54,075 nt of DNA from a virus. How positions within the stretch are numbered: position 1 is the first letter of the stretch; each line of letters begins with the position of its first letter. A program made the translations under genes and the position numbers. The notes below the pieces were generated by a model that saw nothing but the letters and a program-made list of their open reading frames with translations, did no database searches and was not told where the DNA came from. The DNA is taken from the IMG/VR virus record IMGVR_UViG_3300011114_000387, positions 1 through 54,075 of that record. The stretch is one strand, 5' to 3'. Below, piece after piece: positions 32,084 through 51,955 of this stretch.

Positions 32084-33553
32084 TCAATATCCAGTTGTCT
32101 CGTCAAAGACGCTGAAGGATAAGACTGGCGCCATGCGCCCCGGTCTCAATCTTGTCTCAGCTTCTTCCTGCGTCTTGGCAAAGCGGCGCATCATCATGCC
32201 GTACCTCGTTGCACTCATCAAGTCGTCGCTGATTTTAACGACCATACCGTCCTTGCGGTGGTACAGCCTGAATTCTTCGAACCAGTCTTCCAAATGCGAG
32301 AACACGCGCAGGCGCATTGTTTGCATGCGGGTCAGCATCTCGGACAAGCCGGCCTCGACACCGTTGCTGCCATCCTCGAACGTAGCCCGATTGGCAAGCA
32401 TATTTAGACCTTGGTCTTTGTACTGCTTGGCCAACTGCTCACCGCTGCCGCCCTTGTCGCGCTGCAAGCCGTCATGCGGCCATGCCAGAGGAACCCATTC
32501 GCCTCGTGCACGCACAGCCATGGCGTGGCCAGCAATGCCGGGCTCGCTGCGTCTGTAGCAGTCAGTCACATAAAGCGTATCGCTGTCCTTGTCCCAAGCC
32601 ATCCACACGACGGCTGTCGGGTGGTCAACCCCGAAGTCAATAGCGGCAATGCGCGCCCAGTGCGGCGGGATCGGGAAGGCCCTGATCTTGATCGCTTCCT
32701 CGACCACGGGAAACACGCGACCCGATCCTAAGATCGGTATGCCTTTGGCCCGAGCCTCGCGCTCGTGCTCAGGGTAGCTGGCGATGATCGCTGCAGCCTG
32801 CTCGGGCGTGTAGTGCTCGGCGTCGCTGATCGTCATGTTGATGACCGTTGATGACGCCGGCTTTTCCAGCAGGAATCGTTTGACTACTTCGGACATGCCA
32901 AGCAAAGGCGTGAAGGTCACAAAGACCTGACCGGCCGTTGCCTGCGTACGGGTCAAGCCCTCAGAATAAATTGACAGCGGTGGCTCTTCGTCAAACCAGA
33001 CTAGGTCCACTGTGTCGGCCTGCCACTTGGTGCGGCCTTGGTCGTAGCTGTTGAACTGGATTACGCTGTCTTCGCCGCATTCGTGGCGGACCACAATGCT
33101 TGAGACCGCATCGGGCACGCCCTGCTTCATGCTGGTATCGCGCACGCAGTCAAACGGAATGGCGCCAGTGCCCCACTCTTCCCGCATCTCTGGCGGACCA
33201 AGCAGCAAGCGCTGGATACCCTTGCGGGTCAACTCGGCCGATTCAGATCCAACCATGCAGCGAATAGCGTAGTTGTATCGCTTACCTTTCCACCATGATG
33301 GGTAGCGGCCTGTCGTGTGCATCGCGACCTCGAAGGCCCCGGCCCACGTTTTGCCAAGCTGGTTGCCTGCCATGAACAAGCGCTCTCGAAAGTCAGCGCC
33401 AGCGTTGTGAAAGTCGATCTGCTTCTTGTAGGCCGCATAGCTCAACAAGCGATTGCGCTTGGCCCTGATGTCTTTCAGGCGCAGCAGCTCGTACAGCTCG
33501 CGCTTCTCGTCGTCGTCTAACAGCGCTGTGTCTATGCGATCGAGCTTGATCAT
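32084..33553 (-). CDS. terL: Terminase large subunit
   Basis: A 489-residue packaging ATPase and nuclease. The Walker A motif AGNQLGKT is at residues 62-69, Walker B VDLVWFDEE at 182-190, the coupling motif FTPL near 214, and the RNase H-like nuclease begins AAIDFGVDHP with the first catalytic Asp at about 307. It drives DNA into the prohead through the portal and cuts the concatemer. ATG overlaps the upstream stop (ATGA), coupling it to the putative small subunit. Confidence 0.95.
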   Translation of the reverse strand: MIKLDRIDTALLDDDEKRELYELLRLKDIRAKRNRLLSYAAYKKQIDFHNAGADFRERLFMAGNQLGKTWAGAFEVAMHTTGRYPSWWKGKRYNYAIRCMVGSESAELTRKGIQRLLLGPPEMREEWGTGAIPFDCVRDTSMKQGVPDAVSSIVVRHECGEDSVIQFNSYDQGRTKWQADTVDLVWFDEEPPLSIYSEGLTRTQATAGQVFVTFTPLLGMSEVVKRFLLEKPASSTVINMTISDAEHYTPEQAAAIIASYPEHEREARAKGIPILGSGRVFPVVEEAIKIRAFPIPPHWARIAAIDFGVDHPTAVVWMAWDKDSDTLYVTDCYRRSEPGIAGHAMAVRARGEWVPLAWPHDGLQRDKGGSGEQLAKQYKDQGLNMLANRATFEDGSNGVEAGLSEMLTRMQTMRLRVFSHLEDWFEEFRLYHRKDGMVVKISDDLMSATRYGMMMRRFAKTQEEAETRLRPGRMAPVLSFSVFDETTGY

Positions 33554-37896: not shown

Positions 37897-37900
37897 TATC

Positions 37901-37918
37901 TAAACCAACCTAAAGGAA
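37901..37918 (+). promoter_or_regulatory. Shared translation leader, copy 1
   Basis: TAAACCAACCTAAAGGAA occurs just before ATG 37923 and contains its AAGGA ribosome site. Near-identical sequences precede ATG 46166 and ATG 49037. Confidence 0.6.
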
Positions 37919-37922
37919 ATTT

Positions 37923-38879
37923 ATGTCTCACGAACTCACCACTCACGCTGATGGCCGCGTCGAATTTGCATACCTCGCTTCGGACGGAACACCATGGCAC
38001 GGTTTGGGTCAAGCACTCGAAGATGGCACTAGCCTCGATGCTTGGCGCGTAGCCGCTGGCATGGACTGGAAGATCAAACGCGGTATCGTTCGCTACAACA
38101 CTGACTTCGACGGCTCTCAGTTGGAGTTGCCAGAACAGCACGTTCTGTTCCGCTCTGACACAAAGGCGCCGCTCGGTGTCGTGTCCAATCGCTACCAAGT
38201 TGTTCAGCCCGGTGATGTTGTGGAATTCTTCCGCGACATTGCACGCGCTGGTGGCTTGGAGTTGTCAGCAGCAGGAACCATCTACGGTGGCAAGCGCTTC
38301 TGGGCAACGGCCAAGATTGGCGAAGCTGCTCCCACTTCGGTGGCAGACACGATCGGCGGCTACATCCTGATCAGCACAAGCGCTGACGGATCGCTGGCCA
38401 CTGAGGTACGTCGTACCACCGTGCGCACCGTGTGCAAAAACACACTGGCCATGGCGTTGGCTGAGAAGTCAACAATCAAGGTTACTCACCGCTCTGTGTT
38501 TGATCCAGATTCTGTTAAAGAATTCATGGGCCTGAACACTGCAGCTTGGGACGCCTTCCGCCACAACGTTGTCAAGTTGTCCAACATCGAGTTGTTTGAA
38601 GAAGAGGCCGGTGAGATCACCGCCAACATCTTTGGCAACGGCGAGAAGGTCCGCGAAGCTGCTGGCTTCAAGAAGGTCCTGTCGTTGTTCAACGGCGCCG
38701 GCATGGGCGCTCAGATGGACGGCGTGATGGGCACACGTTGGGGCTTGCTCAACGCGTTCACAGAGTACGCTGACCACCACGTCCGTGCTCGCTCTGACGA
38801 GAACCGCTTCGTGGCTTCTCAGTGGGGCGCTGGCGCTGACCTCAAGCAGCGCGCTCTGTCTGCTTTGATGCCTGCTTGA
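37923..38879 (+). CDS. DUF932 phage/plasmid-like protein
   Basis: A 318-residue protein of the DUF932 (TIGR03299) family: PWHGLGQALEDGTSLDAWRV near the N-terminus, LGVVSNRYQVVQPGDVVEFF, and the conserved VRRTTVRTVCKNTLAMAL. The family is widespread in phages and plasmids; its biochemical role is not established. It is the largest gene of the early operon and is framed by RNA elements B and C. Confidence 0.88.
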   Translation: MSHELTTHADGRVEFAYLASDGTPWHGLGQALEDGTSLDAWRVAAGMDWKIKRGIVRYNTDFDGSQLELPEQHVLFRSDTKAPLGVVSNRYQVVQPGDVVEFFRDIARAGGLELSAAGTIYGGKRFWATAKIGEAAPTSVADTIGGYILISTSADGSLATEVRRTTVRTVCKNTLAMALAEKSTIKVTHRSVFDPDSVKEFMGLNTAAWDAFRHNVVKLSNIELFEEEAGEITANIFGNGEKVREAAGFKKVLSLFNGAGMGAQMDGVMGTRWGLLNAFTEYADHHVRARSDENRFVASQWGAGADLKQRALSALMPA

Positions 38880-42867: not shown

Positions 42868-43086
42868 CAGGGTAATAGGGCATTACAGGGCAATTGATTT
42901 CCTATATATACCTTTGGGAAACACTAACATTTGCCACAACTGTCAAGTATCATCTTCCTAAAATATGTATATCTTTTTCTATTACCCTTATTACCCTAAC
43001 TACTATATTCTTCAATGATTTCAAAGACTTAAGTCAGGGTAATAGGGCAGGGTAATAGGCAGGGTAATAGACCCCCTATTACCCTG
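42868..43086. repeat. Iteron cluster, probable replication origin
   Basis: Seven copies of the 9-mer AGGGTAATA: plus orientation at 42869-42877, 43036-43044, 43049-43057 and 43061-43069; inverted at 42980-42988, 42989-42997 and 43077-43085. The stretch from 42891 to 43030 between copies is very AT-rich. The cluster lies between the VRR-NUC and primase genes; the last copy covers the primase stop codon. Iterons beside an AT-rich segment and a primase-helicase gene are the usual layout of an origin. Confidence 0.72.
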
Positions 43087-45394
43087 AAAACTCAGGCTCA
43101 TCGGCAGGAACCAAGAAAACCACACGTCCGTTCGTCTTTTTGCGCTGACCGCCGTTCAACTTCTTCAATGCCCTGCCGGCCGTAATCGTCTGCCCTTTTG
43201 ACGGATCGCGCACCCCAATCTTCATTAGCGCATCGGTTGCCGTCACCCACAAATCGCTTCCAAGCCCCAATTCCGACCAGTTAAATGCGGCCGCCACGCG
43301 CTCCTCGATCGGATCGACCACCGTAAATTCCTCGTTGTGGGTGTTCAACTCGCCCATCTCTTGCATGTTCAGGGCCCAGTTCTCGCCCCCAACCCACAAC
43401 CCCTTCACTTCGGCCCAAAGCTGCTGAATGTCAATACCGCTGTCCAAATCAAACCCGTCAACCTCGATCGACCAAAACCTGCGGTTGCCTGTTGGGTCAC
43501 TCAGGTATTGAGATTCGTTGACCGTTCCGCCAAACACGGTGCGGCGACCAAAGTTCGATTCTGTTGCGGCGTATGGCCGGCGCAGCTTGTCCATGGCCTG
43601 CGTTGTGAATGACTTCAACGCGCTAATCTCAGACTTTGAGAACGTCGCGTCAAGCTCACCCAGCTCGACAATCCAATAGGACAGGGCAATGAAGATCGAG
43701 TCCTTGGAACGCATGTCAAGCGTGTGGCCTGTCAGCACCGCGTCAAGGTGGGCCGGCGCCAGCCTCTGGAACCAAGTTGTTTTGCCGATGTTCTGTGGGC
43801 CAACGAAAGTCAGGATGCCTTGGCCGGCAATGCCGTCAGGGCTGAACGCTGCAGCCACCGCTTGGATGAGCCACTTGCGCATGAGCTTGCGCTTCATCTT
43901 CTCGCCCCCGGCCGGCACCCGCACAGTGGCATAAAAGTCGTCAAGCCGCGACACACCGTCCCACCCCCTTGAATCGATCCATGTGGCCACGGGGTTGTAT
44001 TGGTTCTTGTCTGCGAGGGTGATCAGGAATTGAGCAACGTGCTTGGTCGGCATGCGCACCTTCTCGCACTCAGACAGGACGTGTGAGATGGCCGCGTTGT
44101 CACGGTTGTCACGTGTGAAGGCGCTCCCCGGTATAAGCAGCTCGATTGCCTTCTTGATCACGTTGTATCTGACCGAATACTGCAACTTGTCCATCAGCAC
44201 ATAGAAGTTGTCAAGCGTGCATAAGGGATAACCCTCATCGTTCAAGTTGACGAAGCCGCCCGAGACTTTGACCCTTGCCCGAACCCACCCCCGTACAGTT
44301 GACAGGGGCAGCTTCGTGCCAAGGTCCTTCGCCCGCATCTGGATCGCAACTGCGATCTGTTCGCGCTCCACGTCCGACACTTCGGCAGTGTGTGCAATGC
44401 CAGCCGCGATCTTTTCTTGCAGTTGGCGCACGTCTGTGCACGCAGCCACCATGTCCATCACCGCACTCAGAGCCACATCGCGCTTGTCCAGCTTGGCCAC
44501 ATCCCGCTTGTCTTTAGTCATGTGCAGCAGCGACGCAAGCGTCACTGCTCCTCGACCCGTCGCGCGCTGCTGGCTAAACGTCCCCCACTTTTCAGCGCAG
44601 TAACCAGATACCCACTTGTCAGAGACCGCGCTCCAGTTATCCCAAGCCTCAAGCCACTCAGGGTCGCCGCCGCTCTGGTGGTGCAGTGCCGCACCGACCT
44701 TGAGCCACTCGCCGTACCCCACATCAGGGTCAAGGTGCACGAGCACTTCATCGACCACGCGGTCAAGCTCCCAGCCGTCAAGAGCGAACTTCAGGTTGGC
44801 AAAGCCGTCTTCGTCGTCACCGCCTGCCGCGCCCATCTCTTCGTCCCACACCTTTGCAATCATCCAGCCTAGGTCCTGCGGCAGCACCGGCAGCGACGCG
44901 TGGCCGTTGATCGCATGGCCAGTCACTGTGAAATAACGGCCGTCTTTGTACAGCTCAACGCCAGCCTCTTTTTTGGTCCGACTCCCGTCAAGGTTTGTCT
45001 GTGTGAAGATCTTCAGGCCAGTGCCAGACGGCGATACCTCGGCGTAGCCCTCGACTCTGTCGAGCGTCTCTTGCGCCAGATCCGACAACACCCCGGTGAC
45101 CGGGTCGCGGCAGTCGTCTAGGTCGATGCCGTGCAGCATGCCACCAAGCACAATGCCAATACCGTCGTAGTCGCCAAGCGGGTATTCGTCTACGGCCGCA
45201 CCGAATGAAGCCCATGTGGCCGCATCGGTTGAGCTGCCTGCGCCGCCCTTGGCAGAGAGCGGCATCTTGGCCCAGACCTTCTCGCCGTTGGGCTTGCTGC
45301 GCTGCACGTTCTTCCACAGGACCCAGCGGTCCAGCGCTTGCAGGTCTTGGGGTATGTTGTCTAGGCTGAGCGCCAGTACTTCGGGGCGAGTCAT
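43079..45394 (-). CDS. Primase-polymerase with VirE/D5-type helicase
   Basis: A 771-residue replication protein. The N-terminal 170 residues look like an archaeo-eukaryotic primase-polymerase: GIDLDDC (catalytic Asp pair) and EVSPSGTGLKIF. A PriCT-like helical linker follows. The C-terminal helicase of the VirE/D5 type has Walker A GPQNIGKTTW near residue 531 and FGGTVNESQYLSDPTGNRRF. It should prime and unwind at the origin directly downstream. A short duplication, DKRDVA twice near residue 300, is visible. Start overlaps the upstream stop (ATGA). Confidence 0.9.
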   Translation of the reverse strand: MTRPEVLALSLDNIPQDLQALDRWVLWKNVQRSKPNGEKVWAKMPLSAKGGAGSSTDAATWASFGAAVDEYPLGDYDGIGIVLGGMLHGIDLDDCRDPVTGVLSDLAQETLDRVEGYAEVSPSGTGLKIFTQTNLDGSRTKKEAGVELYKDGRYFTVTGHAINGHASLPVLPQDLGWMIAKVWDEEMGAAGGDDEDGFANLKFALDGWELDRVVDEVLVHLDPDVGYGEWLKVGAALHHQSGGDPEWLEAWDNWSAVSDKWVSGYCAEKWGTFSQQRATGRGAVTLASLLHMTKDKRDVAKLDKRDVALSAVMDMVAACTDVRQLQEKIAAGIAHTAEVSDVEREQIAVAIQMRAKDLGTKLPLSTVRGWVRARVKVSGGFVNLNDEGYPLCTLDNFYVLMDKLQYSVRYNVIKKAIELLIPGSAFTRDNRDNAAISHVLSECEKVRMPTKHVAQFLITLADKNQYNPVATWIDSRGWDGVSRLDDFYATVRVPAGGEKMKRKLMRKWLIQAVAAAFSPDGIAGQGILTFVGPQNIGKTTWFQRLAPAHLDAVLTGHTLDMRSKDSIFIALSYWIVELGELDATFSKSEISALKSFTTQAMDKLRRPYAATESNFGRRTVFGGTVNESQYLSDPTGNRRFWSIEVDGFDLDSGIDIQQLWAEVKGLWVGGENWALNMQEMGELNTHNEEFTVVDPIEERVAAAFNWSELGLGSDLWVTATDALMKIGVRDPSKGQTITAGRALKKLNGGQRKKTNGRVVFLVPADEPEFSG

Positions 45395-45588
45395 GACCGG
45401 TCACCCCGCTGCATCACAAACGTGGGGCTTGTCGCTTGCAGCATTGCTTTGCGTATACCGTTGTAGCTGTCGGACTGGATCAGCGCTGCAATCACAACAC
45501 CTTGGTGCTCTTCGCTAATTTTCATTTGATCAACCGCGTCTATGCAGTCGGCCAAAAGATCCTTGTAATACTCAACGCGAGTAAACAT
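45391..45588 (-). CDS. Small protein upstream of the primase
   Basis: A 65-residue helical protein (MFTRVEYYKDLLADCIDAVD) with an AGGAG site upstream of ATG 45588. An in-frame start further upstream is less likely since it lacks such a site. Overlaps the primase start. Unknown function. Confidence 0.68.
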   Translation of the reverse strand: MFTRVEYYKDLLADCIDAVDQMKISEEHQGVVIAALIQSDSYNGIRKAMLQATSPTFVMQRGDRS

Positions 45589-45629
45589 AACATCTCCTAA
45601 ATACAACACCGGCATCCGGCCGGCTCGGT

Positions 45630-45824
45630 TTAATTCGGCATGTCGCTGATAGGCAACATGTGCAGGAGCGCCCGCTGTACCTGTGTGTGAAAAGCGTTGA
45701 CCGCTTCATCATCACAAGACACAAACATGCGCACACCTTCCTCTTCCACATCAAACACCAACTCCGCCCCCTCAGCAATCGCGCGCATCGCTTGAAGGGA
45801 CAAGGCTAATCTAAGTTCTATCAC
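45630..45824 (-). CDS. Small protein coupled to the repressor
   Basis: A 64-residue protein (MIELRLALSLQAMRAIAEGA) starting at GTG 45824, which overlaps the repressor stop (GTGA) with AAGGGG upstream. Function unknown; could modulate the repressor. Confidence 0.65.
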   Translation of the reverse strand: MIELRLALSLQAMRAIAEGAELVFDVEEEGVRMFVSCDDEAVNAFHTQVQRALLHMLPISDMPN

Positions 45825-46042
45825 CGGCGCCCCTTGAGGGCGTCCCAATCAATGTCAGGCCTCATGTCTTCAGCACGCAGGCCAAGGCGCAGCAACCGCG
45901 AGACACGTACCAATTCAGGTACGCGCGCCATGGGTATGCGATCCTTGCTGGCCCACAGTGACACGGCTTGAGAGCGTATGCCAAGGTAGTGGGCTAGATT
46001 AACGGGGCCGCCGAAGCGGCTGATGATTTCACTTGTAGTCAT
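45821..46042 (-). CDS. Cro/YdaS-like repressor
   Basis: A 73-residue helix-turn-helix protein: MTTSEIISRFGGPVNLAHYL then GIRSQAVSLWASKDRIPMAR, the typical Cro-like layout where G-I-R-S-Q-A-V-S-L-W is the recognition helix. It probably binds the palindromes between the divergent promoters at 46.05-46.13 kb. The predicted transcription start is next to its ATG, so its mRNA may be leaderless, as for lambda cI from PRM. Confidence 0.86.
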   Translation of the reverse strand: MTTSEIISRFGGPVNLAHYLGIRSQAVSLWASKDRIPMARVPELVRVSRLLRLGLRAEDMRPDIDWDALKGRR

Positions 46043-46050
46043 GGGCTGCC

Positions 46051-46080
46051 ATGATAGCGTTGTTTACATGTAACATGCAA
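46051..46080 (-). promoter_or_regulatory. Leftward promoter of the repressor/replication operon
   Basis: TTGCAT (46080-46075), an 18-nt spacer and TATCAT (46056-46051). The spacer contains the palindrome TTACATGTAA. Its -10 box and flanks GCTATCATG mirror those of the rightward promoter. Confidence 0.62.
46064..46073. promoter_or_regulatory. Palindromic operator candidate TTACATGTAA
   Basis: A perfect 10-bp palindrome in the spacer of the leftward promoter. It is a likely site for the Cro-like repressor encoded just beside it. Confidence 0.5.
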
Positions 46081-46100
46081 TAAATTTATTTTTCACAGGT

Positions 46101-46127
46101 GCATTGCAAACGCGATGAAAGCAATGC
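46101..46127. promoter_or_regulatory. Inverted-repeat operator candidate over the rightward promoter
   Basis: GCATTGC (46101-46107) and GCAATGC (46121-46127) are perfect inverted repeats 13 nt apart. They cover the -35 region and the end of the spacer of the rightward promoter, so a bound protein would block it. Confidence 0.55.
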
Positions 46128-46133
46128 TATCAT
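46104..46133 (+). promoter_or_regulatory. Rightward promoter of the replication operon
   Basis: TTGCAA (46104-46109), an 18-nt spacer and TATCAT (46128-46133), with GCTATCATG context. It mirrors the leftward promoter at 46051-46080. Confidence 0.62.
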
Positions 46134-46140
46134 GAGGGTT

Positions 46141-46158
46141 CTAAACCAACCTAAAGGA
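46141..46158 (+). promoter_or_regulatory. Shared translation leader, copy 2
   Basis: CTAAACCAACCTAAAGGA precedes ATG 46166 and supplies its AAGGA site. It matches the leader upstream of ATG 37923 in another operon. Confidence 0.6.
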
Positions 46159-46165
46159 CTAAACC

Positions 46166-46375
46166 ATGAATGATCTTTACCAAGGGTTCTTGAATTTCTT
46201 CAAGGCACCCAGCGCGATAGTGATTGCTGCACGCGAGCTTGAAGAAGCGCGCCGGCAGTTACTTCAATCGCAAAGCGCAGCCGAGTACGCAATCCGAATT
46301 TCATCTTATCACCAAGACCGCATCAAGCGTTTGTCTGCTTTCCTTGTCGATGCCAACAAGGAGTCAGCAGAATGA
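46166..46375 (+). CDS. First gene of the rightward replication operon
   Basis: A 69-residue helical protein (MNDLYQGFLNFFKAPSAIVI, then ARELEEARRQLLQSQSA), probably coiled coil. Function unknown. Coupled to the next gene by ATGA. Confidence 0.74.
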   Translation: MNDLYQGFLNFFKAPSAIVIAARELEEARRQLLQSQSAAEYAIRISSYHQDRIKRLSAFLVDANKESAE

Positions 46376-46548
46376 AATACCCAAACGAAGCAGTTCGCCA
46401 GTACATGGCCAAGCGCCGCGCCGAGTTGCGCAAGCCATGCCCAAGACTTTATCCCAAGAACGGTGATGTTCTCACGACCAAAGAATACGTGGCCAGATAC
46501 TGGGCCGCAAATTTTATCAACCAGAAACCAGAGGAGTTTTTTCAATGA
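46372..46548 (+). CDS. Small basic protein
   Basis: A 58-residue basic protein (MKYPNEAVRQYMAKRRAELR, ending NQKPEEFFQ). Unknown function. Both ends overlap neighbours by ATGA, which supports the frame. Confidence 0.68.
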   Translation: MKYPNEAVRQYMAKRRAELRKPCPRLYPKNGDVLTTKEYVARYWAANFINQKPEEFFQ

Positions 46549-46892
46549 TCACGATTACCTTTAACCCCCAGAACGCAGATCAAGTTCAGATCTTGGCTTG
46601 GGCTATGACCAAGCTCTTGGAGGCCACACCCGCCCCCGCCCCCGCCACTGAGTCGGAGGCGCCAGCCAAGAAGCCCAAGGCAGTCAAGGCCGCACCGGCT
46701 CTGGCCGTTGAGCCAGAGACGCCGCCTGCTGCACCCGCTATCACGCTTGAGGAAGTGCGCGCCAAGCTGGTGGCCTACAAAGAAAAGGGCAAGCCACTCA
46801 AAGAATTGTTTGAGACCGTTGGCTGCGCCAACCTGAGCGCAGTGCCGCCCGAGCGCTACGCTGAGTTGCTAGGCAACATGGGGGCAGCGTAA
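46545..46892 (+). CDS. Phage recombination/SSB-associated helical protein (rrp5-type annotation)
   Basis: A 115-residue protein in three parts: an N-terminal strand-helix (MITITFNPQNADQVQILAWA), a Pro/Ala/Lys linker (residues 27-63), and a C-terminal helical domain (TLEEVRAKLVAYKEKGKPLK, ERYAELLGNM). The C-terminal pattern is common in phage proteins often labelled rRNA-biogenesis-like and encoded near single-stranded DNA-binding genes. It probably has no rRNA role here. Confidence 0.68.
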   Translation: MITITFNPQNADQVQILAWAMTKLLEATPAPAPATESEAPAKKPKAVKAAPALAVEPETPPAAPAITLEEVRAKLVAYKEKGKPLKELFETVGCANLSAVPPERYAELLGNMGAA

Positions 46893-46894
46893 AC

Positions 46895-46987
46895 ATGAAT
46901 GCGTGCCAACATCGTTGGGAGCCCGTTGAGGGCCAACCAATGTACAAATGCGCTAGGTGTAATGCTTTTATGAGGATCATCACGTGA
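46895..46987 (+). CDS. 30-residue zinc-knuckle protein
   Basis: MNACQHRWEPVEGQPMYKCA continues with RCNAF: ligands C4, H6, C19 and C22 would bind one zinc. Starts 3 nt after the previous stop and overlaps the next GTG start (GTGA). Small phage zinc knuckles of this type (CxH..CxxC) are common beside replication genes. Confidence 0.6.
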   Translation: MNACQHRWEPVEGQPMYKCARCNAFMRIIT

Positions 46988-47613
46988 GCTACATCATTGC
47001 ATCGCTGCCACCAATTAAATGCTTTGTGAAGCGCGAGTTTTTGTACAACGACCACAAGGGTCACGGCGAGTTGGAGCCGGCCATTTGGGTCAGCCTTAAA
47101 GCCTTGCGTGGCCAAGTGTTCCGCATTGAATCGTTGCTGCCCAACTATGGCGCGCTGTACGACAAGCTGCCGATACATGCGTACGTCTGGCACGCTGACG
47201 CCGGCAACTTGCCCATTGACACGTTGCAATTGTGGGACTGCATGGGCTATCGATTCACAATCGTTGAGAAGATTGGCCTGCGCAATTTGGGTGTGAAGTT
47301 CTTGGGCAAAAACAAAGAGTGGCATTTTGGTCGATACATGTTTACCGTAGACTTCTGCGCCGACGGTATGGACCTAGACACTGGTTTCACTGAGACGGCT
47401 GAAGAGCACAAGAGCTTTAACTTTATCCAACTAGACAACGGCCAGTTTGCTTGTCAGCCAAACAACCGTTGCCTGTGGTACGACCAGTCTTTGATTCCTG
47501 CTGAGACAAAGCACCCGGACTTTCAAGCAGCGCAAAGACTATGGACTGTTGACGGCACGCGCAAGTGGGCTGCCGGAGACGATTGGTTTTATGACATAGA
47601 GGAGAAAAAGTAA
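46984..47613 (+). CDS. Conserved phage protein of unknown function
   Basis: A 209-residue protein (MSYIIASLPPIKCFVKREFL) with DTLQLWDCMGYRFTIVEKIG and a C-terminal AQRLWTVDGTRKWAAGDDWF. It is not a named family to me, though its site upstream of the DUF2800 gene is typical of conserved phage replication operons. Start is GTG 46984 overlapping the previous stop. Confidence 0.74.
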   Translation: MSYIIASLPPIKCFVKREFLYNDHKGHGELEPAIWVSLKALRGQVFRIESLLPNYGALYDKLPIHAYVWHADAGNLPIDTLQLWDCMGYRFTIVEKIGLRNLGVKFLGKNKEWHFGRYMFTVDFCADGMDLDTGFTETAEEHKSFNFIQLDNGQFACQPNNRCLWYDQSLIPAETKHPDFQAAQRLWTVDGTRKWAAGDDWFYDIEEKK

Positions 47614-47858
47614 TGGCAAAAGTAACGATCATCATTGAGGACAAGGAAGACGAGGTCATGGTTCATGGCAGCGTTGAGCCTTTCATGACTGAGGACAAGC
47701 TGGTATTTACTACAGCGGAAATCATTGGCCTGTACATGCAAGACAACATTGCAAAGATCATGGCCGACGCGGTCAAGTGGTCGCAGACGCCGGACCCAGT
47801 GGAAGAAGTGGCCGTCAAAGAACCAAGCCGCATCATCTTGCCGGGCGCCGAGCTATGA
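47613..47858 (+). CDS. Small acidic protein
   Basis: An 81-residue protein (MAKVTIIIEDKEDEVMVHGS) with a helical middle and a C-terminal tail. Unknown function. Overlaps the next gene by ATGA. Confidence 0.7.
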   Translation: MAKVTIIIEDKEDEVMVHGSVEPFMTEDKLVFTTAEIIGLYMQDNIAKIMADAVKWSQTPDPVEEVAVKEPSRIILPGAEL

Positions 47859-49027
47859 CCATCGAACTAGCACACGCCAAACTGTCCGCATCTGGCAGTG
47901 AGAAGTGGATGACCTGCACGCCAAGCGCGCGCATGGAAGAAGCGTTCCCAGACGAGGGCAGCGAGTTTGCCCGCGAAGGTACGTTTGCCCATGCAGTGTT
48001 TGAGCAGGAGCTGCTGCACTACCTTGGCCGCGAGGTCGAGCCTTTGCCAAACGAGCTGATGCACTTTGATTCACCAGCGCTTGTCGACTACGTGCGCGAG
48101 TCGGTGGACTATTGCATCGAGCGGATCAAGGCGGCGCGTGCTAGGTGCAAGGACCCGGTGTTCTACGTTGAGCGCAGGCTTGACTTCAGCCGTTGGGTGC
48201 CAGAAGGTTTCGGCACTGGCGACTTTGTGATCATCACTGACGAGCTTGTCGAGGTGCTGGATTTGAAATACGGCAAGGGCATCTTTGTTGACGCGAAGAG
48301 CAACAGCCAAATGCGTTTGTATGGTCTCGGTGCTTACAACGAGTTGGCCGACCTGTACGACATACAGAAAGTGCGCATGACCGTATTGCAGCCACGCCTT
48401 GGCAACTACAGCAGCGAAGAGCTTTCAATAGCCGAGCTGCTCAAGTGGGCGGACGAGGCAGTTGTGCCAGCAGCCAAGCTGGCTTGGGATGGCGAGGGTA
48501 CGTTTGTCCCCGGGCCTCATTGCACAAGCAGTTTTTGCAAAGCAAGGTACACATGCCCTGCACGCGCAGAAGGCGCGCTTGCTGTAGCAAGGCAAGAGTT
48601 CAGTTCGCTGCCACCGGCAGTGGACACATTGACACTGGACCGCATCGCCCAGTTGCTGCCTAGCGCAGACGCTGTGATCGATTGGTTTACAGACCTGAAG
48701 GCCCATGCACTCAAGCAGGCCGAGAAAGGTACGACAGTCCCCGGCTACAAGCTGGTCGAGGGCCGAAGCAATCGCAAGTACAGCGACCAAGACGCCGTGG
48801 CCAAAGCGCTGCGCGACGCCGAGGTCCCTGACGAAATTGCATACGAGCGCAGCCTGCTTGGCATCACTGCCATGGAGAAGGCGATCGGTAAAAAGAAATT
48901 TGTTGAGGTGCTGGGGGATCTGATCACCAAGCCCGAAGGCAAACCAACGCTGGTGCCCGAAGGGGACAAGAGGCCAGCACTTACATCTCGTGTATCCGCA
49001 CTTGATGATTTTTCTAAACCAGTCTAA
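47855..49027 (+). CDS. DUF2800 protein, PD-(D/E)xK nuclease-like
   Basis: A 390-residue DUF2800 protein. The N-terminus LSASGSEKWMTCTPSARMEE, then FAREGTFAHAVFEQELL, FGTGDFVIITDELVEVLDLK and YGKGIFVDAKSNSQMRLYGL carry the D...DLKYG core of the Cas4/AddB-like PD-(D/E)xK fold. A Cys cluster (CTSSFCKARYTCPARAEG) may hold an iron-sulfur cluster, as in Cas4. It probably acts in DNA end processing or recombination with the downstream SSB and polymerase. Confidence 0.86.
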   Translation: MTIELAHAKLSASGSEKWMTCTPSARMEEAFPDEGSEFAREGTFAHAVFEQELLHYLGREVEPLPNELMHFDSPALVDYVRESVDYCIERIKAARARCKDPVFYVERRLDFSRWVPEGFGTGDFVIITDELVEVLDLKYGKGIFVDAKSNSQMRLYGLGAYNELADLYDIQKVRMTVLQPRLGNYSSEELSIAELLKWADEAVVPAAKLAWDGEGTFVPGPHCTSSFCKARYTCPARAEGALAVARQEFSSLPPAVDTLTLDRIAQLLPSADAVIDWFTDLKAHALKQAEKGTTVPGYKLVEGRSNRKYSDQDAVAKALRDAEVPDEIAYERSLLGITAMEKAIGKKKFVEVLGDLITKPEGKPTLVPEGDKRPALTSRVSALDDFSKPV

Positions 49028-49031
49028 AGGA
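49014..49031 (+). promoter_or_regulatory. Shared translation leader, copy 3
   Basis: CTAAACCAGTCTAAAGGA at the end of the DUF2800 gene precedes ATG 49037, with the same AAGGA site as copies 1 and 2. Here the leader also encodes the last DUF2800 codons. Confidence 0.55.
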
Positions 49032-49036
49032 CAAAC

Positions 49037-49576
49037 ATGACTACCGACTACAAAGTTATCACAGGCAAAGTTCGCCTCTCTTTCACCAAGAACGTTTTCA
49101 CACCTGATGAAAAAGGTTCTTACTCAATCATGATTTTGATTGACAAGAAAGACAAAGAGACCTTGGCCAAAATCAACGGCGCTGTTGACAAGTTTAAGAC
49201 TGACCCCAAGGCAGTAACCATTTGGGGTTCTAAGTTCTTGGCCAGCTTCAAGACGCCTTTGCGTGACGGCGACACAGACCGCGACACTGAGAAGTACCCA
49301 GAGTACAAGGGCCACTACTTCATCAATGCCAATACGTACAACAGGCCCGGCGTTGTTGATGCTCAAAAGAACGACATCATCGACAAGTCAGAGTTGTACA
49401 GCGGTTGCTACGGCCGTGTGTCCATCATGCCTGCGGCGTACAACGTCGACGGCAACAAGGGCATCAAGTTCTATTTGAACAACGTGCAGAAGCTGGCCGA
49501 CGGCGAGCCTCTAGGTGGCAGCGTGTCCAACGCAGCCGACGACTTCACTGCTGTTGAAGACGATTTCCTGAATTGA
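49037..49576 (+). CDS. Single-stranded DNA-binding protein, Enc34-like (DUF2815)
   Basis: A 179-residue protein of the DUF2815/Enc34 type, a single-stranded DNA-binding OB-fold family of phages. Conserved parts are TGKVRLSFTKNVFTPDEKGS, YSIMILIDKKDKETLAKI, YKGHYFINANTYNRPGVVD and CYGRVSIMPAAYNVDGNKGI. The C-terminus is acidic (DFTAVEDDFLN), as for SSB partner-binding tails. It is encoded between DUF2800 and the polymerase, its usual neighbours. Confidence 0.9.
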   Translation: MTTDYKVITGKVRLSFTKNVFTPDEKGSYSIMILIDKKDKETLAKINGAVDKFKTDPKAVTIWGSKFLASFKTPLRDGDTDRDTEKYPEYKGHYFINANTYNRPGVVDAQKNDIIDKSELYSGCYGRVSIMPAAYNVDGNKGIKFYLNNVQKLADGEPLGGSVSNAADDFTAVEDDFLN

Positions 49577-49588
49577 TTAACGGGGCTG

Positions 49589-49606
49589 TAGCAGGCCCTG
49601 CTTTTG
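49589..49606 (+). terminator. Weak hairpin terminator after the SSB gene
   Basis: AGCAG and CTGCT arms with a GCC loop followed by TTTTG. It lies in the 40-bp gap between the SSB gene and the next gene and may lower downstream expression relative to the SSB. Confidence 0.42.
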
Positions 49607-49616
49607 AAAGAACAAT

Positions 49617-49832
49617 ATGACCGAACAAACTAAACCCCCAGTCCTGTCAATCAAGATGGTCCCCGCCGGCGTTGAGCTGGTGTTGGCCGCATTGGCAAAG
49701 TTGCCGCACGAGCAGGTGGCGGATCTCTTCATGGAGATTCGCGGCCAAGCAATGTATCAAATGGAAGAGCTGCAAAAGACGCAAGTCTTAGCAGTAGAAC
49801 CAGATGACGCAACAGACGTCACACCTGTCTAA
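49617..49832 (+). CDS. Small protein upstream of the DNA polymerase
   Basis: A 71-residue acidic helical protein (PVLSIKMVPAGVELVLAALA). Unknown function; its site between SSB and polymerase suggests a replication role. Confidence 0.68.
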   Translation: MTEQTKPPVLSIKMVPAGVELVLAALAKLPHEQVADLFMEIRGQAMYQMEELQKTQVLAVEPDDATDVTPV

Positions 49833-49917
49833 CGAAGAGCTTTGGATCTTGGTGCGTCATTACGAGCACCTGATCCAATTACTTCTGGAACAATTAGATG
49901 ACAACCCTACGAATTGA
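49804..49917 (+). CDS. 37-residue overlapping micropeptide
   Basis: MTQQTSHLSNEELWILVRHY then EHLIQLLLEQ, a helical peptide overlapping the previous gene by 29 bp and the polymerase start by 20 bp. The ribosome site is weak. It fills the only gap in the operon and is plausible, not proven. Confidence 0.45.
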   Translation: MTQQTSHLSNEELWILVRHYEHLIQLLLEQLDDNPTN

Positions 49918-51955
49918 CCTTGAGACGTACAGCGATGTCGACTTGAAAAAGTGTGGCGTGCACAAGTACGTTGAGTCGGACAACTTCGAAGTGCTGTTGT
50001 TTGCTTACGCGTTTGGCGACAGTGACGTTAACGTCATCGACTTGGCAGCAGGTGAGAAGCTACCCTACTGGCTTTTACTTAAACTGTACGACCCGGCGGT
50101 TACCAAGACCGCGTACAACGCAGCGTTTGAGATAGCCTGCTTGAACAGGATACTTGACGCAAACCTTGAGCGAGAGCAATGGCGTTGCACCAGCGTGCAT
50201 GCGCTTTATCTTGGCTTGCCCGGCAGCCTCGGTGAAGTAGGCAAGGTGTTAGGCCTCGGAGCCGACAAGCAAAAGCTGATGTCGGGCTGGGCGCTGATCC
50301 GTTACTTTTGCCTGCCATGCAAACCGACATTGAAGAACGGCGGCCGCGTGCGCAACCTACCGCAGCACGACCCTGACAAGTGGGCGCTGTTTAAAGAATA
50401 CTGCGCCCGCGACGTTGAGTCAGAGCGCGAGATCGCAACACGGATTGCAAAGTTTCCCGTGCCCGACAAAGAGTGGAAGCTGTGGCACCTTGATCAACGG
50501 ATGATGAGCATTGGGATTAAGGTTGACCGCGAGTTGGTCAACGCAGCCATTGAGTGCGACAACATTTTCAAAGCGCGGATGACCGCAGAGGCCATTGCTC
50601 TTACAGGTTTAGACAACCCCAACTCTCGGGACCAATTGCTCAAGTGGTTGCAGACTGAAGAGGACGACGACACGATCGTCGACCTGACCAAGAAGAGCGT
50701 GCCCAAGGTTCTTGAATCTACGGACAGTGCGACGGTGCGCCGCGTGCTGGAGCTGCGCCAAGAGATGGCCAAGACCAGCGTGTCCAAGTACCACGCCATG
50801 GCCCGAGCCATGTGCGACACCGACGACGCGGTCAAAGGCTTGACCCAGTTCTACGGCGCGAACCGCACAGGCCGTTGGGCTGGTCGTCTGGTGCAGGTGC
50901 AGAACCTACCGCAGAACAAACTGCGTGACATCGACTTGGCCCGCAACCTGTTGAAGAAGCGAGACTACGAAACACTTGAGCTGCTGTTTGGCAATGTGCC
51001 TGACACGCTGTCACAGCTCATCAGGACGGCGTTCGTTGCTCGGGAGGGGTGCAGGTACATCATCGTCGACTTCAGCGCCATTGAGGCCCGTGTGATCGCT
51101 TGGATGGCATGGTGCCAGTGGCGGCTGGATGTGTTTGCCACACACGGCAAGATCTACGAAGCGTCGGCCGAACAAATGTTTAACTTGCCGGCCGGCAGCG
51201 TCACGAAGAAAAGTCCGTACCGGCAGAAGGGCAAGATCTCTGAGCTGGCTTTGGGATACCAAGGCGGAGCCGGCGCACTCAAGACCATGGGCGCTTTGGA
51301 GATGGGGCTCACAGAGGATGAGCTTGAGCCTATCAAAGAAGCGTGGCGCGGGGCCAACCCTGAGATCGTTCAGTTCTGGTACGCGTGCGAGCGCTCGGCC
51401 AAGGAAGCGGTGCTGGGCAAGAGGTCTGTTGTCCTACCCATTGCGGGCCAGATGGTTGCGTTTTATGAAGACGGCCGCCCAGTTAAAAACTCCCGGGCTT
51501 GGCTAGTGTTTGCCTATGAGTCAGGGTTCCTGACGATCCAGTTGCCAAGCAAGCGCAAACTGTTCTACGTAAAACCACGTATTGAGGTTGAAGACCTTGT
51601 GCGTGAGACCAGCTCAGGCGGCAAGTTCATTGCGGCCAGAGCGGGGTCCTTGACGTACGAAGGGCAGGACCAGAAGACCAAACAGTGGACGCGCTTGTCT
51701 ACGTACGGCGGCAAGCTGGTGGAGAACATCACTCAGGCGGTGGCTCGTGATTGTTTAGCCGAGTCGATGCTGGCGCTAGACTATGTAGGCTACACGCAGC
51801 TGGCCACGGTGCACGACGAGATCATCATGGAGATGAAAGGCGGCACGTTGAAAGAAGCCGAAAAGATTATGGGCGAAGCTATTACATGGGCGCCCGGCTT
51901 GCCGTTGCGAGGCGACGGCTTTGAGACCAAGTACTACATGAAGGAGATTGACTGA
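49898..51955 (+). CDS. DNA polymerase, family A
   Basis: A 685-residue polymerase. The exonuclease starts with RIDLETYSDVDLKKCGVHKY (the DxE motif). Polymerase motif A is IIVDFSAIEARVIAWMA near residue 386, motif B is RQKGKISELALGYQGGAGAL, and motif C is LATVHDEIIMEM near the C-terminus. It replicates the phage genome with the primase-helicase and SSB. Stop overlaps the next start. Confidence 0.96.
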   Translation: MTTLRIDLETYSDVDLKKCGVHKYVESDNFEVLLFAYAFGDSDVNVIDLAAGEKLPYWLLLKLYDPAVTKTAYNAAFEIACLNRILDANLEREQWRCTSVHALYLGLPGSLGEVGKVLGLGADKQKLMSGWALIRYFCLPCKPTLKNGGRVRNLPQHDPDKWALFKEYCARDVESEREIATRIAKFPVPDKEWKLWHLDQRMMSIGIKVDRELVNAAIECDNIFKARMTAEAIALTGLDNPNSRDQLLKWLQTEEDDDTIVDLTKKSVPKVLESTDSATVRRVLELRQEMAKTSVSKYHAMARAMCDTDDAVKGLTQFYGANRTGRWAGRLVQVQNLPQNKLRDIDLARNLLKKRDYETLELLFGNVPDTLSQLIRTAFVAREGCRYIIVDFSAIEARVIAWMAWCQWRLDVFATHGKIYEASAEQMFNLPAGSVTKKSPYRQKGKISELALGYQGGAGALKTMGALEMGLTEDELEPIKEAWRGANPEIVQFWYACERSAKEAVLGKRSVVLPIAGQMVAFYEDGRPVKNSRAWLVFAYESGFLTIQLPSKRKLFYVKPRIEVEDLVRETSSGGKFIAARAGSLTYEGQDQKTKQWTRLSTYGGKLVENITQAVARDCLAESMLALDYVGYTQLATVHDEIIMEMKGGTLKEAEKIMGEAITWAPGLPLRGDGFETKYYMKEID

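Follow-up and report, generated by a model that had tools for sequence, protein, structure and literature searches.

Mirrored divergent promoters, paired putative operators and a probably leaderless Cro-type repressor in a cI-less region of uncultured phages

In the OR region of phage lambda, divergent promoters are overlain by operators, and the cI regulator is translated from a leaderless message. Comparable arrangements have been described in two other systems. In the immB region of the telomere phage PY54, the cI and cro messages are both leaderless, as mapped by RACE, and Cro binds a single 16-bp palindrome; according to the part of that report drawn on here, PY54 possesses a cI gene, which its Cro represses, while apparently not repressing itself (PMC4488713). 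In the paaR2-ydaS region of CP-933P from E. coli O157:H7, divergent promoters carry palindromes over both, a YdaS-family protein takes part and one regulator is leaderless, namely the cI-like paaR2; the relevant sections of the report describe two antagonistic regulators in competition (PMC8630535). Judging from these portions of the two reports, leaderless regulators and palindromes over divergent promoters are thus already known.

The window analyzed here is a viral contig of 54,075 bases, in which the structural genes run leftward and the leftward and rightward operons part at positions 46043-46165 (a 123-bp gap). The leftward replication operon encodes a repressor, two small proteins, a primase, a small resolvase-type nuclease and a helicase. 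It is headed by the gene of a 73-aa Cro/YdaS-type helix-turn-helix (HTH) repressor (45821-46042, minus strand), which starts with ATG and has no Shine-Dalgarno sequence, followed on the same strand (43079-45848) by the two small genes (45630-45848 and 45391-45615) and the primase gene (43079-45394). The rightward operon opens with small early genes. The first of these (46166-46375, plus strand) encodes 69 amino acids of no assigned family, has relatives at the equivalent position in the other mirrored loci described below, and is preceded by the Shine-Dalgarno sequence AAAGGA (46153-46158, plus strand; duplex energy -5.3 kcal/mol). The remainder of the operon (46372-51955, plus strand) leads on to a DUF2800 exonuclease, an Enc34-type ssDNA-binding protein and DNA polymerase A. 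A 19-nt exact repeat (46140-46158 and 37899-37917) comprises the leader and Shine-Dalgarno sequence at two genes, the first rightward early gene and a DUF932 gene at 37923.

The phage group to which the window belongs is known solely from metagenomes. No DNA relatives were found among named phages, and no Rfam match was found. Rhizobium phages RHph_N2 and RHEph18 have the terminases nearest to that of the window (32084-33553; about 61%). In the related record G003 (53,927 bases, containing loci L020 and L024), the repressor gene is divided between the two record ends, pointing to a genome of ∼54 kb that is circular or circularly permuted; the window is therefore probably near complete.

By sequence and predicted structure, the repressor is a P22/Xfaso-type Cro. 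It matches both PF14549, P22_Cro (E 7e-9; 35.8 bits against a cut-off of 30.2), and PF15943, YdaS (E 3e-11; 43.4 bits against a cut-off of 30). Among sequences of solved structures, a 9-row profile matched only Xfaso 1 Cro, XPH1 and P22 Cro at E values up to 1, and a 23-row profile added N15 Cro; the matches to Xfaso 1 Cro (3BD1) had E values of 3e-8 and 3e-10. The AlphaFold2 model of the repressor (mean pLDDT 94) is predicted to adopt the Cro fold with its helix-turn-helix, and 3BD1 is its nearest solved structure according to both Foldseek (E 1.1e-3, TM 0.67/0.74) and VIA-align (Z 8.7, rmsd 2.0 over 64). The next structural matches, in which Cro proteins are mixed with other proteins (Z 6-7), carry little weight by themselves. 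The named Cro relatives are less than 50% identical to the repressor. The Cro of the Sf11-like phage Sa179lw was considered as a named counterpart and set aside, since it is without the mirrored, leaderless layout, and no divergent Cro-like gene adjoining the primase was seen in the three named primase relatives inspected.

Relatives were collected as 17 close loci by repressor, 25 by primase, the best 80 of 214 by repressor alignment, and 10 in bacterial genomes. The working set consists of the window, 64 of those best 80 of 214 relatives (at least 45% identity; L046-L109) and one of the 10 loci from bacterial genomes (L126), i.e., 66 loci of 45-100% identity, which form 25 clusters at about 90%. 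One of the 25, L069, is a copy of the window's own cluster that is cut off at a contig end, and L059 has only 38 nt of upstream sequence, so that its right-hand site was not scored.

The original prediction held that the repressor message is probably leaderless, the leftward -10 box ending close to the ATG (about 9 nt), and comparison strongly supports this, the start itself being a predicted one. In the window the distance is 8 nt, measured from the hexamer TATCAT (46056-46051, minus strand) to the ATG at 46042. In all 66 loci the start codon is ATG and a hexamer of the form TA(T/A)CAT ends 6-10 nt before it (8 nt in 50 loci, 6 in seven, 9 in five, 7 in three and 10 in one), while shuffled upstream sequence yields such a hexamer in 0.35% of draws per locus. 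A -10-like box occupies that place in 25 of 25 cluster representatives versus 1 of 41 other genes of the window. Conversely, an anti-Shine-Dalgarno duplex energy of -4 or lower was obtained for none of the 25 repressor starts (mean -0.03), versus 28 of 41 control starts (mean -5.68). The usual discriminator measures 6-8 nt. Given this length and the observed -10 spacing, the message is predicted to start at the AUG or within two bases of it, and the spacing together with the missing Shine-Dalgarno sequence makes it very probable that the repressor message is leaderless. Among the distant YdaS-type relatives, some have Shine-Dalgarno-like leaders and some a -10-like box near the ATG, as judged by eye and uncounted. 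In five distant Cro/YdaS relatives (L112, L118, L122, L124 and L125), an apparent box, again judged by eye, is located 6-8 nt upstream of the ATG, and leaderless starts may be common among Cro genes.

Both promoters of the window were found in the single form originally proposed, the leftward one as TTGCAT-N18-TATCAT (46075-46080 and 46051-46056, minus strand) and the rightward one as TTGCAA-N18-TATCAT (46104-46109 and 46128-46133, plus strand). The -10 regions also constitute the long inverted repeat described there: positions 46050-46069 and 46115-46134 are complementary at 17 of 20 positions, with 45 nt separating the arms, a match reached by none of 300 Markov shuffles of the 123-bp gap (shuffle maximum, 16). 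Comparison with the relatives strongly supports mirrored divergent promoters at the sequence level. The -35-like elements are less constant. Conservation of the leftward one is poor beyond the close group, and in most clusters the leftward -35 box agrees at only 2-3 of 6 positions; the rightward one is not kept in close relatives that have a 12-nt deletion. The rightward -10 is of the extended type (TGC-TATCAT), and TGn precedes it in 12 of 12 mirrored clusters, versus 8 of 25 clusters for the left promoter.

Each of the two -10 boxes is overlapped by a 15-bp imperfect dyad that is a putative operator. The left one, GTAAACAACGCTATC (46053-46067, minus strand), overlaps the leftward -10, and the right one, GAAAGCAATGCTATC (46117-46131, plus strand), mirrors it, with centers 64 bp apart. 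In this the region resembles, at the sequence level, a lambda-type immunity region, two divergent promoters each being overlapped by a putative operator. When the upstream regions were compared, a dyad of approximately GNNAGY-N3-GCTATC was found to span the leftward -10 in every cluster, apart from a few single-base departures; over each -10 box, the conserved dyad can also be summarized as approximately GATAGC-N3-GCTATC or GWWAGY-N3-GCTATC. With a matrix derived from the left sites alone, the cluster being tested left out each time, a further site was detected in 12 of 25 clusters; it lies on the other strand and covers the rightward -10, and in each of the 12 it scored better than all 300 shuffles (floor p 1/301). 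When whole records were searched, each of the 13 mirrored ones had one copy of the pattern GNNANYNNNGNTAWCAT on each strand and no more, with 40-66 nt between the two, whereas the control, the pattern read backwards, was absent from all 19 records searched. As the pattern was derived from these sites, its presence there is by construction, and its absence elsewhere is the result. In the window, no further operator copies without mismatch were found beyond the two. The centers of the two sites are 35-65 bp apart overall and 52-64 bp within the window's cluster; since the spacing varies freely, the sites would likely be bound independently, and cooperative looping between them is unsupported.

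The palindromes that had been assigned to the two promoters, TTACATGTAA (46064-46073) and GCATTGC/GCAATGC (46101-46107 and 46121-46127), are indeed present, but do not stand as operators. Within the window's cluster, TTACATGTAA is present in 14 of 17 loci, but the representatives of all other clusters lack it; the GCATTGC..GCAATGC pair is found in the window only (1 of the 65 loci whose upstream sequence sufficed), its GCATTGC arm being deleted in many close relatives. The notion that each promoter has its own palindrome thus gives way to a single, shared 15-bp type of putative operator, present in one copy per promoter. This operator is not shared by the distant YdaS-type relatives of 24-42% identity (16 loci, L110-L125, and nine loci, L127-L135).

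The gene facing the repressor is not the same in all clusters. In 10 of 25, it encodes a cI-like HTH protein of one homologous family, assigned as cI-like by its place and HTH only. The mirrored site was found in none of these 10 cI-bearing clusters, versus 12 of the 15 others (Fisher p 1.1e-4 by cluster); when L069 is merged with the window's cluster, the counts become 0 of 10 and 11 of 14. The three clusters of L074, L094 and L099 have neither a cI-like gene nor a close mirrored site, while L102 has the mirrored site and no BLAST match to the early-gene queries. An operator-like dyad was, however, detected within 90 nt before the early gene in all nine testable cI-bearing and all three "neither" clusters (p 0.002-0.034 each), using a symmetric matrix trained on left sites only, and, of the control windows (26-35 per locus), not one attained its score. 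Several early-gene starts of cI-bearing loci were set by hand in this test, and L088 was omitted, its early gene being unrecognizable; the pooled p of 2e-16 is too small, as related loci were treated as independent. In the clearest case, L100, the dyad GTCAGCTCCGCTATCAT follows the cI-like gene and precedes the early gene, which has a Shine-Dalgarno sequence. Operator-like dyads thus flank the cI-like gene on both sides, and the mirrored pair resembles these two operators with no cI-like gene separating them.

The original prediction saw a compact switch although no integrase was present. The absence of the PF00589 integrase from the window is borne out; the mirrored state, rather than coexisting oddly with this absence, accompanies the lack of both integrase and cI-like gene, and for this reason a Cro-type early shut-off is likelier than a lysis-lysogeny decision. 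Among the 14 records longer than 50 kb, PF00589 was detected in five and HTH_3 in those same five, while neither was detected in the eight long mirrored records (the window included) or in that of L074, records that may be incomplete. ParA (PF13614) was found in none of the 14. No cI-type repressor gene divergent from cro was found, there being no HTH_3 in the window and none adjoining the repressor. In another set of 43 records, mostly short and again including the window, integrase was present in three: those of L092 (cI-bearing) and L099, and the bacterial genome carrying L126. The record of L099 (G046) thus combines an integrase with weak operator-like sites and no cI-like gene beside the repressor. 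A possible operator at the integrase gene was considered for the temperate relatives: in two of them, an operator-like site (L136:265-281 and L137:267-283) lies upstream of this gene but on the other strand, pointing away from it.

The mirrored state requires one change on the repressor tree (weak support, 45/70) and two on the concatenated four-protein tree, whereas the presence of cI requires 4-5 changes. The independent-pairs test had too few pairs, and the link between the mirrored state and the absence of cI rests on very few events. The cI-less loci are scattered within the cI-bearing part of the unrooted tree, a distribution that tends to favor loss over gain, and cI may have been lost from these loci.

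From the sequence-level features described above (the form of the promoters, the conservation and mirror symmetry of the operators, the absent Shine-Dalgarno sequence, the Cro family and predicted fold, and the distribution of cI-like and integrase genes), we infer protein binding, dimerisation, occlusion, transcript starts and timing as follows. The small HTH protein would be made from a leaderless transcript, initiated at a promoter with a poor -35. A repressor dimer would bind two copies of the 15-bp dyad, one over the -10 of its own leftward replication operon and the other over the extended -10 of the rightward early operon, each site acting alone. Bound repressor would keep RNA polymerase off, and both operons would be shut. 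The region would then represent a lambda-type immunity region minus cI, the temperate relatives having a cI-like gene between the operators. This reading, in which an immunity region without cI relies on Cro alone to shut down both early operons and thereby acts as a Cro-type governor of early genes, is considered probable.

Several other readings were weighed against it. The Cro-like protein might also be the maintenance repressor of a non-integrating prophage, in a one-repressor lysogeny or carrier-state switch. Repression of both early operons (itself presumed), a leaderless message resembling those of lambda cI and PaaR2, and the weaker appearance of the repressor promoter all point that way, and yet the integrase and ParA families are absent from the eight long mirrored records, both -10 boxes are covered by operators with no obvious room for self-activation, the 73-aa Cro lacks a cooperativity domain and the spacing of the sites is variable; a lysogeny switch is thus unlikely. 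A bolder proposal, which we regard as doubtful, is that a tailed-phage clade pared the lambda-type immunity region down to Cro alone. The loss of cI would have brought operators once about 700-1150 bp apart together as a mirrored pair, and the leaderless Cro, unaided by cI, integrase or partition genes, would maintain infected cells in a reversible state of low expression (carrier state).

Ordinary -10 boxes account in part for the TATCAT-containing sites, and the dyads might be bound by another host or phage protein, with the Cro-like protein acting elsewhere; this is very unlikely, given that none of the 66 loci lacks the dyad at the promoter of the repressor itself, that dyad and helix QAVS-W are retained together, and that the 13 mirrored records contain no copies elsewhere. 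We give equally little credence to a repressor message that has a leader and originates at a distant upstream promoter: the poor leftward -35 boxes would be in keeping with it, while the fixed spacing, the invariant ATG and the lack of a Shine-Dalgarno sequence in all 25 representatives speak against it. The name of PF15943 ("Bacterial toxin YdaS") would make the repressor the toxin in a YdaS-type toxin-antitoxin pair; this is scarcely credible, since no antitoxin-like partner gene was recognized, the structure is nearest to Cro and, in the sections of the CP-933P report considered here, YdaS binds and represses promoters of the cI/cro type (PMC8630535).

Under the favored reading of a Cro-type governor of early genes, a Cro that operates with no CI partner emerges as a conserved design found in nature, and its putative operator can be read from 66 sequences. 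The relatives, temperate and cI-less alike, share this putative operator, which flanks a cI-like gene in the former; with them, the step between temperate and virulent states can be studied by sequence and promoter reporters. Uncultured phages here also contribute many naturally occurring regulator genes that are probably leaderless.

In the open-access literature, no paper was found on a conserved cI-less region with a leaderless Cro and one mirrored operator per early promoter. The Cro proteins of the Xfaso 1 prophage (3BD1) and P22 (1RZS) share the small Cro fold and sequence family of the repressor; the gene described here, however, is the first of a replication operon and stands opposite the early operon, and no cI gene intervenes. 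In contrast to PY54, there are two mirrored sites, one of them at the repressor's own promoter, and no cI. In contrast to CP-933P, there is a single regulator, which stands on the YdaS/Cro side and is itself probably leaderless. With lambda OR, the region shares divergent promoters overlain by putative operators and a probably leaderless regulator, but it has neither cI nor a three-operator cluster, one site per promoter being present instead. It is a real, conserved regulatory region, and a variant of the known cI/cro kind.
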